The notes beneath the pieces were generated by a model. The model was given only the letters and a program-made list of their open reading frames with translations. It was not told the DNA's origin and searched no databases. Below are positions 37,452 to 41,753 of a DNA stretch of 53,949 nucleotides, piece after piece (within the stretch, counting starts at the first letter, position 1; the number at the start of each line of letters is the position of its first letter). The position numbers were made by a program, and so were the translations under genes. Source of the DNA: Candidatus Oscillochloris fontis (GTDB taxonomy: Bacteria > Chloroflexota > Chloroflexia > Chloroflexales > Chloroflexaceae); assembly GCF_004138135.1 (NCBI RefSeq), contig NZ_RYFD01000030.1, positions 1 to 53,949 of the forward strand, written 5' to 3'.

Positions 37452-37847
37452 CTATTGTACCACCGGGCGAAACTTGTACCCATAGACCAGCACCCCATCG
37501 GCACCCGTATCCACCAGTTGGCGGGTGACCATCTCGACCGGCATGCCGATCTCCAGATCGGACTCGGCGCAATCGGTGAGTTGGGCGGTAATCAGGGCAC
37601 CTTCGGCGAGGCGCACCAGGGCAATCGGGTAGGGCGCGAAGGGTTCGTAGCCTTCAGGAACTTGGCGTAGCATACTGAAGCTGTAGATCTCGCCACGCCC
37701 GCTGAGGGTCAGGGTTTCCCAGGTATCGGAGGTCTCACCCAGCGCCAGCGGCTGCATCGGCACCCGCACCTCACCCGTAGCCCGGTTGCGCTCCCCCTGG
37801 AGGCGATAGCGGGCCGGGTGGCCACGCCAGTGTCGTGCGATATCCAT
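37452..37847 (-). CDS. DUF35 / OB-fold acyl-CoA-associated protein without zinc cysteines
   Basis: A 131-residue relative of archaeal DUF35 proteins, which bridge acetoacetyl-CoA thiolase and HMG-CoA synthase. The OB-fold part is well kept (LSGRGEIYSF, APYPIALVRL, ITAQLTDC, VYGYKFRPV). The N-terminal zinc-ribbon region (GERNRATGEVRVPM...) has none of the four cysteines usual there. It lies 23 bases downstream of the thiolase-like gene in the same direction, so it is probably the last gene of the cluster. A scaffold role is inferred from the family. Confidence 0.85.
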   Translation of the reverse strand: MDIARHWRGHPARYRLQGERNRATGEVRVPMQPLALGETSDTWETLTLSGRGEIYSFSMLRQVPEGYEPFAPYPIALVRLAEGALITAQLTDCAESDLEIGMPVEMVTRQLVDTGADGVLVYGYKFRPVVQ

Positions 37848-37870
37848 ATCTCTCTCCTCTGGTGGAATTG

Positions 37871-39052
37871 CTACTCTTCGCCAACCAGCACCGTCGTCGC
37901 CGCCGTCACCCCCACCCCACCGAGCACCTGGGCCAGCGCCACCCGCGCCCCGGCCACCTGGCTCGGCCCGGCCTTGCCGGTGAGCTGGCGCACCAACTCA
38001 ACCACCTGATACATGCCACTCGCCCCGGCGACATCGCCGCGTGCCTTGTAGCCACCCGCAGTTGCCAGCGGCGTGCGCCCGGTCGGGCTGATCGCGCCAT
38101 CGGCAGCCTCACGCGGGGCAGTGCCGCGCTCATAGAAGCCCATGGATTCCAGCGCCAACACGGCGGCAATCCCGTGCGGGTCGCAGAGTTCGAGCACCTG
38201 CACGTCATTCAAACTGAGTTGAGCCTGGGAAAGCGCAACCTGCGCACTGGTGCGAGCCGCCACGAGATCGAGCGGATCGCGCCGCGCACCGAGCGTGGGC
38301 GTATCGGTAGCGACCGAGGTACCGGCGACACGGATACGCGGGCCGGGGAGTTCACGCGCAATCGCCTCGGAGGCCACGATCACCGCCGCCGCACCATCCG
38401 CCACGGTCGAGCAGTCGAGCATATTCAGTGGCGAAGCAATCGGATTGGCCTTGCGGTACTTATCGGCACTGATCGCAAAGCGGTAGAGCGCCTGGGCATT
38501 CTTGGCCGCATTGGCATGTGCATTCACCGGGAAGGGCGCGAAGGCATCCATGCTATAGCCGTGCTCGTGCATATAGCGACGCATCAACAAGGCCCACTGG
38601 CCAGTGAGGGTAATCCCGTGAATCCCCTCCGACTCGGCATCGGCGGCCAGTGCCAACCCGGCCTCCAGCGGCGCATCGAGGCGATCCGTCACCTTCTCCG
38701 CCCCGATCACTACTGCAACGGCGCACGCCCCCGACTGAACCGCCTGCACCGCTTGGTGCAACGCTACCCCACTACTCGCCCCGGCTGCTTCGATCCGCAG
38801 CGCGGGCACCCCCACGAGGCCCGCCGCAGCGGCGAGGTAGGGGCCGAGTTGGCTCTGGCTGGCCATCGTCTCAGCCAACGCATTCGCAACATAGACCATT
38901 CCAACATGCTGAGCATCAAGCTGAGGTGCATGGGCAAAGGCCGCCCGCACCGCCTCACTCGCCAGATCGGCGAGGCTGCGTACAAAATGCTCGCCTACCT
39001 GCGTGGCTCCCACCCCAATGATATAGGCATCCATAGATGTCTTGCTCATCAT
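37871..39052 (-). CDS. Thiolase-family protein lacking the catalytic cysteine (pseudo-thiolase)
   Basis: A 393-residue archaeal/SCP2-type thiolase fold. The segment normally written EAACASG reads EAAGASSG, with Gly91 in place of the nucleophilic cysteine. The late GHPxGATG motif reads GDVAGASG (Asp340 for His), and the HDAF-like motif reads CDPH. The C-terminal GGVG loop lacks the second cysteine. Activity as acetoacetyl-CoA thiolase is therefore doubtful; a scaffold or substrate-holding role with HMG-CoA synthase and DUF35 is more likely. ATG 39052 is chosen; an in-frame GTG at 39058 overlaps the synthase stop. Coupled to the upstream gene. Confidence 0.85.
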   Translation of the reverse strand: MMSKTSMDAYIIGVGATQVGEHFVRSLADLASEAVRAAFAHAPQLDAQHVGMVYVANALAETMASQSQLGPYLAAAAGLVGVPALRIEAAGASSGVALHQAVQAVQSGACAVAVVIGAEKVTDRLDAPLEAGLALAADAESEGIHGITLTGQWALLMRRYMHEHGYSMDAFAPFPVNAHANAAKNAQALYRFAISADKYRKANPIASPLNMLDCSTVADGAAAVIVASEAIARELPGPRIRVAGTSVATDTPTLGARRDPLDLVAARTSAQVALSQAQLSLNDVQVLELCDPHGIAAVLALESMGFYERGTAPREAADGAISPTGRTPLATAGGYKARGDVAGASGMYQVVELVRQLTGKAGPSQVAGARVALAQVLGGVGVTAATTVLVGEE

Positions 39053-39054
39053 TA

Positions 39055-40104
39055 TCACCCCATCACCAGTTTACCGACCCACTTGGCGTAGACGGCATAA
39101 TCAATAAAGACCGACCGAGCCAGATACGCTGCCGTCAACGGGGCGCGTTCACGTCGTTCGAGCAACGCCTCAGTAACGGTGAGTGCATAGGCATCCGAGC
39201 CAGCCCCACTGCCATACGAGGTCACGAAGATGGTGTCGCCGGGCTTGGCCACATCCAACGTCGCGCACAGACCAGAGAGCGCCGCGCCCGAATAGGTGTT
39301 GCCAATTTTTGGCGAGAGCAGGCCAGGCGCAATCTGGGCATCGCTAAAGCCGAGCCGCTTGGCCACCGCCTGGGGAAACTTGGCATTCGGTTGGTGGAAG
39401 ACCGCATAGGTGAAATCCGTCGCAGTGCGCCCCAAGTCATCGAGCAGACGCTTGGCCGCCGACTGAATCGTGCGGAAATAGGCCGGTTCGCCGGTGAAAC
39501 GGTTGCCGTGGCTCGGATAAGGGCGCTCAGCACGGCGGAAGAAGTCGGGTGTATCGGTGACAAAAGAGACGGTCGCATCAATGGTCGCCAGGGCTTGATC
39601 AGCCGGGCCAACCAGCAATGCCGCCGCCCCTGCCGAAGCGGTATACTCCAGTGCATCACCGGGACGACTCTGGGCCGTATCGGCCCCAATCGCCATCACA
39701 TAGTCGGCCATGCCACTGCCCACCATCGCCATACCCGCAGTAAGCGCTTCACTCCCCGCCTTACAGGCAAACTCCCAGTCACCCGAACTGATCCAGGGTG
39801 ACGTACCCAACGCCTCGGCCACAATCGTACCGGAGGGCTTGACGCTATAGGGATGGCTCTCGGAACCGATCCAGACCGCACCGAGTTGGTCAGCCTGGAT
39901 TCCCGCCCGCGCCAGCGCACTCCGCGCCGCCTCGATAGACATCGTCACCGTATCCTCATCGGGGCCGGGGACACTCTTGGCCTCCACCGGCACAGGCCCG
40001 TGGCCATCGGTCCAGATGCGAGCGATCTCCTTCGCAGCGATCCGGTAGCGTGGCACATACACCCCATAGCCAATCAGGCCGACAGGGCGATTCGGCTTCA
40101 TCAT
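39055..40104 (-). CDS. Hydroxymethylglutaryl-CoA synthase, archaeal type
   Basis: Condenses acetyl-CoA with acetoacetyl-CoA to HMG-CoA, the committed step into the mevalonate pathway. The 349 residues have the acylated Cys114 (WEFACKAGSEAL), Glu82 (GSESHPYSVKPSG) and His237 (VFHQPNAKFP), so the site looks intact. The IGNTYSGAALSG loop and short length match archaeal synthases rather than eukaryotic or Gram-positive ones. It is followed within a few bases by the thiolase-like gene. The upstream gap holds copy F and other hairpins. Confidence 0.9.
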   Translation of the reverse strand: MMKPNRPVGLIGYGVYVPRYRIAAKEIARIWTDGHGPVPVEAKSVPGPDEDTVTMSIEAARSALARAGIQADQLGAVWIGSESHPYSVKPSGTIVAEALGTSPWISSGDWEFACKAGSEALTAGMAMVGSGMADYVMAIGADTAQSRPGDALEYTASAGAAALLVGPADQALATIDATVSFVTDTPDFFRRAERPYPSHGNRFTGEPAYFRTIQSAAKRLLDDLGRTATDFTYAVFHQPNAKFPQAVAKRLGFSDAQIAPGLLSPKIGNTYSGAALSGLCATLDVAKPGDTIFVTSYGSGAGSDAYALTVTEALLERRERAPLTAAYLARSVFIDYAVYAKWVGKLVMG

Positions 40105-40286
40105 GCGGCATCTCCTTCTGGGTTACGAACCAAATGACGGGTATGAGCAAGCTAGGCACTACCATATAAGCGCCCAGGGCAGGGAATCAAGGGCATAGCA
40201 AACACAGGCTTACAGGTTGCAAGCTATTGTCTGAGATTATGGAACATATCCGATGGAGTTTTTGGGGCGGCTACGCCCATTGACAT

Positions 40287-40441
40287 GAACTTTAGGGCTA
40301 ACGCCCTAAAACCCATGTTGGGGCTGCGCCCCAGACCCGCTTTTTTCTCTGTTTTTGGCGGCTTCGCCGCCAAAAACAGAGAAAAAAGTTCTTCGGGGGA
40401 GGCGAAGCCTCCCCCGAACCCCCGCCGGGAGGCGTAAGTTC
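40287..40441 (+). repeat. Multi-hairpin element, copy F
   Basis: GAACTT/AAGTTC outer arms, TTGGGGCTGCGCCCC, a perfect 22-bp stem (40341-40362 with 40366-40387) ending GGCGGC-TTC-GCCGCC, then a perfect 12-bp stem TTCGGGGGAGGC/GCCTCCCCCGAA (40392-40418). The first arm bases also form TTTAGGGCTAACGCCCTAAA. It lies in the 359-base gap between HMG-CoA reductase and synthase and would be transcribed as its reverse complement if the genes form one operon. Confidence 0.8.
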
Positions 40442-40463
40442 CTATTAAGGGGCGGCTGTAGCG

Positions 40464-41753
40464 TTAGTGATGCAGTTCAGCAACCAACTCTTCGGCACGG
40501 GCAGGCTTAATATTGCGCTCCTGCACCATACGGCGAGCGACCTCATCAACCAAGTGGCCGTGGGCACCAGCGGCCATGGCGATCTGGCGGGCGTGCAGGC
40601 CCATGTGGCCCTGCTGGATGCCCTCGGTGGCCAAGGCGCGCATCGCGGCCAAGTTGGAGGCCAGACCGGCACAGACACAGACCTCGGCGAGATCGTTGGC
40701 CGACGTGACGTGGAGCAGCTTAAGTGCCGCCTGGGCTGCCGGGTGAACCTTGGTGGCCCCACCGACAATCCCGACCGCCATGGGCATCTCTAGTGTTCCC
40801 ACCAGATTACCATCGGCATCGCGCTCCCACGTACTGAGCGAGGTATAGGTACCACTGCGCGAAGCATAGGCATGCGCACCGGCCTCAATCGCGCGCCAAT
40901 CGTTGCCAGTCGCGACGATCACCGGGTCAATGCCGTTCATAATGCCCTTGTTATGGGTCGTGGCGCGATAGGGATCAACCGCCGCAAAGGCATAGGCCCA
41001 CATAATCCCCTCAGCCACCGCCTCACCGGAGAGGCCGTCGCGCTCAAGAGCCGCAACCGGCACCACACAACGGGCACGGGCCAAGCGACGGTCGCTCAGG
41101 TTGGAGAGGATGCGCAGATAGGCGCGCCCACCGGAGATCTCCTCCAGCAACGGCGCAATCGCCTCGCACATACTATTGATCGCGTTAGCCCCCATCGCAT
41201 CGCGGCAGTCCACCACAAGATGCACCACCAGCATCGGCCCCATGGGGCTAGTAGGGAAGATATGCACCTCAACGTCCTTCGCACCGCCACCCAAGGTGAT
41301 CAGCGAGCGACTCTGGGCGTTAGCCAACGTGAGGATCTGCTGCTTACGAGCCAAAATATCGTGACGCACACTGTGTGGTGCAGCAACATGAACCAACTGA
41401 ACCTGACCGATCATCACCGGATCGGTGCTATCCGCACTGAAGCCGCCACCCGCCCGTACCATACGTGCTGCATAGCTGGCCCCAGCCACAATAGATGGCT
41501 CTTCAACCACCATCGGGATCAGGTAGTCCTGACCGTTAATGCGGAAGTTGGTTGCAATCCCCAGCGGCAGATTGTATGTGCCGACCACATTTTCAATCAT
41601 CTTGTCAGCGCGCTCAATCGAGAGTACGCCATGTCCACCGTGGAGCGCCTTCAGGTCTTCATCGACCAGGCCGTCGAACGACTTGACCATCTGGAGCCGC
41701 TCAAAAGGATTGAGCTGGTAGAACCCTTGCAGCCGGGAATTCTTGGTGCCCAT
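40464..41753 (-). CDS. mvaA: Hydroxymethylglutaryl-CoA reductase, class II
   Basis: Converts HMG-CoA to mevalonate (or the reverse). The 429 residues and motifs ENVVGTYNLPLGIATNF and EEPSIVAGASYAARM mark class II enzymes, as does GHMGLHARQIA with the catalytic histidine. A GMNMxxK-like and the DAMGANAINSM segment for HMG-CoA binding are present. Class II enzymes often use NADH and are known in bacteria and some archaea. It is the first gene of the mevalonate cluster, about 360 bases upstream of the synthase, which puts mevalonate synthesis as the likely direction. Confidence 0.92.
   Translation of the reverse strand: MGTKNSRLQGFYQLNPFERLQMVKSFDGLVDEDLKALHGGHGVLSIERADKMIENVVGTYNLPLGIATNFRINGQDYLIPMVVEEPSIVAGASYAARMVRAGGGFSADSTDPVMIGQVQLVHVAAPHSVRHDILARKQQILTLANAQSRSLITLGGGAKDVEVHIFPTSPMGPMLVVHLVVDCRDAMGANAINSMCEAIAPLLEEISGGRAYLRILSNLSDRRLARARCVVPVAALERDGLSGEAVAEGIMWAYAFAAVDPYRATTHNKGIMNGIDPVIVATGNDWRAIEAGAHAYASRSGTYTSLSTWERDADGNLVGTLEMPMAVGIVGGATKVHPAAQAALKLLHVTSANDLAEVCVCAGLASNLAAMRALATEGIQQGHMGLHARQIAMAAGAHGHLVDEVARRMVQERNIKPARAEELVAELHH

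Follow-up and report, generated by a model that had tools for sequence, protein, structure and literature searches.

A thiolase-like protein without its catalytic cysteine and a zinc-free DUF35 protein as probable structural partners of an archaeal-type HMG-CoA synthase in Candidatus Oscillochloris fontis

In the stretch of DNA analysed here (the window: all 53,949 nucleotides of contig NZ_RYFD01000030.1 of Candidatus Oscillochloris fontis, assembly GCF_004138135.1), three adjacent genes encode an archaeal-type 3-hydroxy-3-methylglutaryl-coenzyme A (HMG-CoA) synthase (HMGS), a thiolase-like protein and a protein of the DUF35 family. Judged by alignment, the thiolase-like subunit is without the residues that Cys-based Claisen chemistry requires, the zinc site of the DUF35 protein is missing, and the catalytic triad of the synthase is intact. 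It is probable that this operon encodes an archaeal-type HMGS complex, in which the pseudo-thiolase and the zinc-free DUF35 serve as structural subunits of the coenzyme A (CoA) site and a separate thiolase feeds the synthase. This suggests that the thiolase partner, once catalytic, has been kept for a role in structure or binding.

By aligning the thiolase-like protein to solved chains, three losses were located. The nucleophile motif EAACASG reads EAAGASS, with Gly93 in place of the Cys seen in 6esq_A and 7yvy_A; the HD[C/A]F motif reads CDPH, the catalytic His being replaced by Cys292, with Pro294 and His295 after it; and the GHA/GHP motif reads GDV, in which Asp342 replaces the second catalytic His. 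The sequence-only reading of this DNA had claimed the losses at the nucleophile, HDAF and GHP sites, and all three are confirmed; the Cys is gone in 68/69 rows of the window's order. It had also counted the loss of a "second cysteine" as diagnostic, which it is not, since 56 of the 58 rows with an intact nucleophile (Cys-intact rows) have Asn at the C-terminal Cys column 378. These 58 rows comprise 13 of the phylum, 41 archaeal rows, two distant paralogues and two PDB chains. Ala replaces the Cys of HDCF (column 294) in 15 of them, and His is present in 58/58 at HDxF and in 57/58 at GHP. Against NF053570, the model for the acetoacetyl-CoA thiolase of the HMGS complex, the thiolase-like protein scores 270.2 bits, far below the cut-off of 600.

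The synthase, whose closest solved match is 6esq_I (E 1.8e-118), keeps Glu82, Cys114 and His237, as had been claimed. The triad is complete (ECH) in 155 of 156 rows, and the remaining row is a fragment reading --H. Since the triad is kept in every readable row, the lost catalytic residues in these rows are always in the thiolase partner and never in the synthase. The DUF35 protein (3e-23 against 6esq_E) lacks all four zinc Cys, again in agreement with the sequence-only reading; the aligned positions are Asn21, Thr24, Ala35 and a gap after Gly37. None of the four Cys is found in any of the 67 DUF35 rows of the order, window included. Beside an intact thiolase, DUF35 has four Cys in 23/23 scored rows and in 6esq; where the partner is a Cys-less thiolase from outside the order, 15/17 rows have four, the others being G089 (genomes, loci, contigs and families carry our labels G, L, C and f), which has none, and the unreadable fragment L186. 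This nesting of the zinc loss suggests, at the level of sequence, that the thiolase Cys was lost first and the DUF35 zinc later. Trp7, Arg8, Tyr122, Phe126 and Pro128 of DUF35 are invariant in 37/37 aligned rows, with and without zinc Cys. According to the accessible text of PMC6996347, all DUF35 structures of which its authors knew in 2019 were zinc-bound, and the zinc sites are described as Cys4 or Cys3His in the part of PMC12329534 consulted; because the reported DUF35 structures bind zinc, a zinc-free DUF35 is itself unusual.

The distribution of these states was then compared within the class, the phylum and the archaea. HMGS is found at E<=1e-40 in 75 of 158 genomes of the class, and 74 of the 75 belong to the window's order. 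From the order, 69 stretches from 68 genomes were fetched, which with the window gave 69 thiolase rows; five order genomes with HMGS (G001, G021, G026, G029 and G072) were left out, and the stretch of G061 contains no thiolase. Across four families, these 69 rows show 67 Gly, one Thr, one unreadable residue and no Cys at the nucleophile position. G089, from another family of the class, has Glu there. As a positive control, thiolases of family f13, which are of the same broad type and have no synthase gene in the stretch, keep the Cys in 6/6 cases. In the phylum, HMGS occurs in 94 of 400 genomes. Outside the order, 55 genomes had an HMGS match, 39 were fetched and 37 were counted; the Cys is kept in 13 of these 37 typed operons and lost in 24 (14 Gly, 7 Asp, 2 Glu, 1 Gln). 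The distant paralogues of G371 and G498 (33-35% HMGS identity, thiolase Cys kept) and a second G222 locus, likewise a distant paralogue, are not in this count. The archaeal sample was the phylum of G504 (a Halobacteriales archaeon, L044), in which 156 of 196 genomes have HMGS. Fifty of the 156 genomes were examined (the 30 best and 20 chosen from lower ranks), and among the 47 readable rows the nucleophile is Cys in 41 and Asp in 6. The case described for the window stands, and its scope is wider than had been supposed, as other families of the phylum and some archaea are Cys-less too. When wider genome contigs were searched with the thiolase-like protein, 14 distant relatives were returned, mostly proteobacterial.

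At least five changes in the nucleophile state occur on a tree of 124 rows, and four over 111 rows when unlinked paralogues and rows without counts are left out. The trait columns 93, 292-295 and 345-346 were removed from the alignment, and the GHP His column 342 was retained, which is not expected to alter the tree. If Cys is ancestral and was never regained, the changes would be losses: one in a large phylum clade (60 rows; SH-like approximate likelihood ratio test, SH-aLRT, 84), one or two in archaea, and others in single rows. The archaeal base of the thiolase tree is not resolved, hence the count of one or two. The disappearance of catalytic residues from one member of a channelling complex is real, conserved and recurrent.

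Both altered proteins are under strong purifying selection. Within the order, the median pairwise ratio of nonsynonymous to synonymous substitution rates (dN/dS) is 0.066 for the thiolase and 0.045 for DUF35, next to 0.030 for HMGS (23 pairs each) and 0.032 for HMG-CoA reductase (HMGR; 18 pairs). Outside the order, thiolase values are 0.078, 0.126 and 0.133 for three Cys-less pairs and 0.061 and 0.044 for two Cys-intact pairs. All pairs were hand-picked close relatives, and 1 of 29 gave no value. The AlphaFold2 model of the thiolase-like protein has a mean predicted local distance difference test score (pLDDT) of 94.7. By VIA its first matches are 6et9_C/6esq_A (Z 62.4, 1.3 Å over 384-385 residues); by Foldseek 7yvy comes first, with 6et9_C and 6esq_A fourth and fifth. 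The thiolase fold is therefore predicted to be retained. In the DUF35 model (pLDDT 85.7), the two strands around the former zinc loop are still predicted, and the best Foldseek matches are 6esq_F, E and G. These data also bear on the simplest alternative, that the operon reflects pseudogene decay or an assembly error. Four order matches (G070, G073, G081 and G021), draft assemblies included, were flagged with an internal stop. However, the frame is open in the window, its model scores highly, and the Cys-less state is found in 68/69 order rows across four families with dN/dS of 0.03 to 0.10; chance or sequencing error is ruled out by the latter two observations, and decay is so improbable that it can practically be set aside.

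Another finding concerns the altered pocket itself. Among 68 full-length order rows, 11 columns hold a residue that is nearly invariant there but seldom seen in Cys-intact rows: Ala60 (66/68), Gly93 (66/67), Leu127, Thr152, Trp155 (68/68), Phe194, Pro294 (64/68), His295 (68/68), Ala299, Ala332 and Asp342 (64/68; Asn in 4). Four of them (Gly93, Pro294, His295 and Asp342) fall in catalytic motifs, and at these four the Cys-less relatives outside the order are variable. Judged by the general layout of the fold, Ala60 and Trp155 may also lie near the pocket. Ala299 and Ala332 are found in other Cys-less rows as well, and such columns may be lineage marks only. Nothing else speaks as strongly as these new fixed residues for a subunit that is more than a space-filler; since the dead active site bears them, a binding role is plausible. 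The proposal that the scaffold was kept and the chemistry and metal lost is upheld in part: the residue losses in the alignment, the purifying selection and the predicted fold agree with it, but the newly fixed residues point beyond passive scaffolding in this order.

What the rebuilt pocket does may be considered in several ways. It is possible, and we put it forward tentatively, that the dead thiolase of the order is a receiving site, whose rebuilt pocket (Gly93, Pro294-His295 and Asp342, with Ala60 and Trp155 as possible additions) would bind CoA, or acetoacetyl-CoA supplied by a separate thiolase, and hand it on to the synthase, or gate its passage, by way of the shared CoA site. Unlikely is a ligand-sensing site that binds CoA or acyl-CoA and regulates the attached synthase. 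The new dead-site residues and the strong purifying selection would suit such a site, as would TbSLP, which according to the available part of PMC12329534 has low activity on thiolase substrates and which was crystallised with acetoacetyl-CoA and malonyl-CoA (5ab6, 5ab7); the same conservation could, however, serve structure. New catalysis on an acyl-CoA (for example retro-aldol, hydrolytic or decarboxylating), as in the steroid aldolases Ltp2 and Sal, would also account for 11 order-fixed columns with four in catalytic motifs, and thiolase-fold aldolases with DUF35 partners do exist (PMC12329534, in the part consulted). In the 68 order rows, however, the Tyr of the Sal YDxx motif is replaced by Thr (39), Ser (25), Cys (2) or His (2), and Cys304 of Sal by Pro (64) or Gln (4). 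An aldolase of the Sal/Ltp2 type, with the motif as given in the same source, was accordingly rejected. The lost sites outside the order are mixed (Gly 14, Asp 13, Glu 2 and Gln 1 of 30), as under relaxed catalysis, and the gene context is mevalonate, so that new catalysis of any kind is unlikely.

A substitute nucleophilic Cys in the subfamily, which the sequence-only reading had raised as a counter-case, was looked for, and none occurs among the 11 columns. Cys216 was tried as a candidate: it is kept in 60/68 order rows, the other 8 having Ser or Thr. Since 43/58 Cys-intact rows have it too, it was rejected. As both catalytic His positions have changed, with His left at column 292 in only 2/68 rows, it is very unlikely that the protein is still an acetoacetyl-CoA thiolase acting through another nucleophile or a non-covalent mechanism.

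If the linked thiolase is inactive, acetoacetyl-CoA would have to come from elsewhere. The source proposed in the sequence-only reading, another thiolase, is available in principle: the genome of Candidatus Oscillochloris fontis has three intact canonical thiolases with CSSG/CGSG, NEAF, GHP and C[IL]GGG motifs. One of them adjoins a frame that we take to be a 3-hydroxyacyl-CoA dehydrogenase, and is for this reason probably degradative. No match to DXR was found in this genome, which has one divergent relative of mevalonate diphosphate decarboxylase, below the curated cut-off; together, these imply that the mevalonate route is probably the only one. In the accessible text of PMC3857490, the 1-deoxy-D-xylulose 5-phosphate (DXP) pathway is reported absent from the class Chloroflexi, and an alternative mevalonate pathway is shown for enzymes of Roseiflexus castenholzii. 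By gene content, the order probably relies on mevalonate.

A second thiolase also tends to accompany the Cys-less state. In the phylum, another PF02803 thiolase is present in 63/64 Cys-less versus 7/13 Cys-intact genomes (Fisher p 4.6e-5, ignoring kinship); this count covers 77 of 106 typed genomes, 29 near relatives in the order being left out and all Cys-intact genomes kept. In archaea, another thiolase is present in 6/6 Cys-less versus 6/41 Cys-intact genomes (p 8.6e-5, again ignoring kinship). The sole Cys-less phylum genome without one is G071, which is 92% complete and whose congeners are 8/8 above the TIGR01930 cut-off; the gene is probably missing from its assembly. In G638 and G561, the additional thiolase belongs to the same broad type and keeps the Cys, reading SACASA/SACCSS and GHPVGATG. 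Six Cys-intact genomes have no thiolase above the TIGR01930 cut-off (unlinked SCP2-like thiolases were not searched in them), and their acetoacetyl-CoA may come from the linked thiolase alone.

Several points weigh against the structural role proposed here with a separate thiolase as feeder. With only four or five losses behind it, the association with a second thiolase is consistent but not significant; a kinship-aware test has 2 to 4 independent pairs, none contrary, with which significance is unreachable. Another thiolase is present in 7/13 Cys-intact genomes as well, and its presence alone therefore does not lead to the loss. Furthermore, PF02803 does not separate biosynthetic from degradative thiolases, and its counts omit unlinked SCP2-like thiolases in the phylum outside the class. 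Linkage is not uniform either. Among 154 loci with both genes on one strand, the thiolase frame lies <=500 bases downstream of HMGS in 143, but the gap is 611 to 1,644 bases in 6, the frames overlap in 3, and in 2 the thiolase is found on the opposite side of HMGS; the two genes of G034 are on separate contigs. The dN/dS of the thiolase is about twice that of HMGS, and the newly fixed dead-site residues in the order seem to exceed the needs of a passive scaffold. Finally, the shared CoA site is taken from secondary accounts (PMC12329534, in part).

The structural role nevertheless remains the reading that we consider probable, and it may be put as follows. The pseudo-thiolase would still dock on the synthase through DUF35 and would still provide part of the CoA-binding surface that is common to both archaeal subunits, so that the synthase could not do without it. 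Acetoacetyl-CoA would be made by a separate canonical thiolase and enter from solution. As to the likely order of events, a second thiolase would first have made the linked one redundant; the Cys would then have been lost and the His residues would have drifted in several lineages; and zinc would also have been lost in the window's order and one other genome. That the genes persist, while the residues for the channelled reaction are missing from the linked subunit, implies that the partner must have another, selected use. Should the receiving-site proposal prove true, a two-enzyme channel would have become a one-enzyme channel with a regulatory entrance, and the recurrent loss in one partner in bacteria and archaea would form a natural series of pseudoenzyme evolution. 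The natural variants (intact; Cys-less with zinc; Cys-less and zinc-free) allow channelling to be separated from assembly. In addition, acetyl-CoA acetyltransferase would be a mistaken label for such genes in many genomes of a single bacterial phylum and in some archaea, which affects pathway reconstruction and engineering.

The features of the locus are collected in the table below. The coordinates (37452-40104) and frames of the sequence-only reading proved correct for the DUF35, thiolase and HMGS genes when the open reading frames of the window were checked, and the GTG start of the thiolase-like gene overlaps the HMGS stop by 4 bases. HMGR adjoins HMGS in 53 of the 69 fetched stretches of the order, and in none of those of families f2 and f3.

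Table. Positions in the window of the genes and altered sites discussed in the text
Feature	Position	Strand	Remarks
HMGS, archaeal-type	39055..40104	-	349 aa; TIGR00748 479.7 bits vs cut-off 353.35
Thiolase-like protein	37871..39058	-	395 aa, counted from GTG at 39058; possible alternative start ATG at 39052
DUF35 (OB-fold) protein	37452..37847	-	131 aa; PF01796 78.4 bits vs 27.1
HMGR, upstream, same orientation	40464..41753	-	TIGR00532 447.5 bits vs cut-off 259.95
Gly93 codon, nucleophile position of thiolase-like protein	38780..38782	-	alignment
Codons 292-295 (CDPH) at HDxF motif of thiolase-like protein	38174..38185	-	alignment
Asp342 codon at GHP His of thiolase-like protein	38033..38035	-	alignment
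Former zinc-ribbon loop of DUF35, 0/4 Cys	37737..37787	-	alignment

Some further observations were made beside these. The HMGR of the window lies beside HMGS, yet it scores above the cut-off of a model that is named degradative (TIGR00532). The gap between the two genes (40105-40463) contains several short G+C-rich palindromes, e.g. GGCGGCGAAGCCGCC, between A/T runs, which look like repeated hairpin elements. G003 has two diverged copies of the operon (C55 L079 and C558 L083), both Cys-less, which represent a second copy or an assembly mixture. In four genomes of the window's family (G024, G037, G001 and G029; L153-L156), an unlinked thiolase-like paralogue reads EAATATGA, with Cys replaced by Thr; it keeps HDAF and, where readable (3/4), GHP, and is thus a Cys-less thiolase with its His residues intact. 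Three Cys-less thiolases of the phylum, at L174, L175 and L188 (G222, G264 and G168), read YDAY, YDVF and YDDF at the site of the catalytic Tyr of Sal/Ltp2. In L196 and L198 (G371 and G498), HMGS and DUF35 both match a single frame of about 480 aa, and a thiolase that has the Cys lies near it; the frame is a probable HMGS-DUF35 fusion, a different member of this complex superfamily.

In the literature searched (titles and abstract openings, with few subscription papers), no description of a Cys-less thiolase beside HMGS was found. Among the closest known systems is the thiolase/HMGCS/DUF35 complex of Methanothermococcus thermolithotrophicus (6ESQ, 6ET9), which has the same three subunits as the window. 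Among solved chains it ranks first by sequence for HMGS and DUF35 and second for the thiolase; by structure, the DUF35 model matches it best, as does the thiolase model when compared by VIA. In the archaeal complex, DUF35 joins thiolase and synthase, which share a CoA site (PMC12329534 and PMC6996347, in the parts accessible), and the arrangement is explained in the former as preventing the release of acetoacetyl-CoA to solvent. Unlike that complex, the window lacks the thiolase nucleophile, both catalytic His and the zinc Cys of DUF35. The Pyrococcus furiosus thiolase PFC_04095 (7YVY) is the best solved sequence match of the thiolase-like protein (252.5 bits) and the first by Foldseek; unlike the latter, it retains EAACASG, HDAF and GHP.

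The steroid aldolases Ltp2-ChsH2(DUF35) and Sal-Shy(DUF35) (6OK1, 9MYR) resemble the window in combining a thiolase fold and DUF35 with a non-thiolase active site. For CtSal, the available text of PMC12329534 describes how DUF35, with its N-terminal helix and its OB domain, wraps around a helix of the partner that has the thiolase fold. On the other hand, the catalytic Tyr and Cys of Sal are absent from the window, the context is mevalonate and not steroid breakdown, and the DUF35 partners of Ltp2 and Sal bind zinc (same source), unlike that of the window. PhlACB of Pseudomonas protegens (5M3K) is a homologous assembly in which one condensing-enzyme subunit has Gly for Cys, as here. According to the portion of PMC6392133 consulted, the HMGS-like PhlA lacks the Cys (Gly115) and the Glu, and PhlA and PhlB are very likely needed for a properly folded, functional complex and not for acyl transfer itself. 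The acylated Cys88 of PhlC (same source) would correspond to the Gly of the window, a match of position that follows from the shared family and not from an alignment. PhlACB is thus the mirror image of the window, with a dead HMGS-like subunit and an active thiolase-like one, and it differs in product and pathway.

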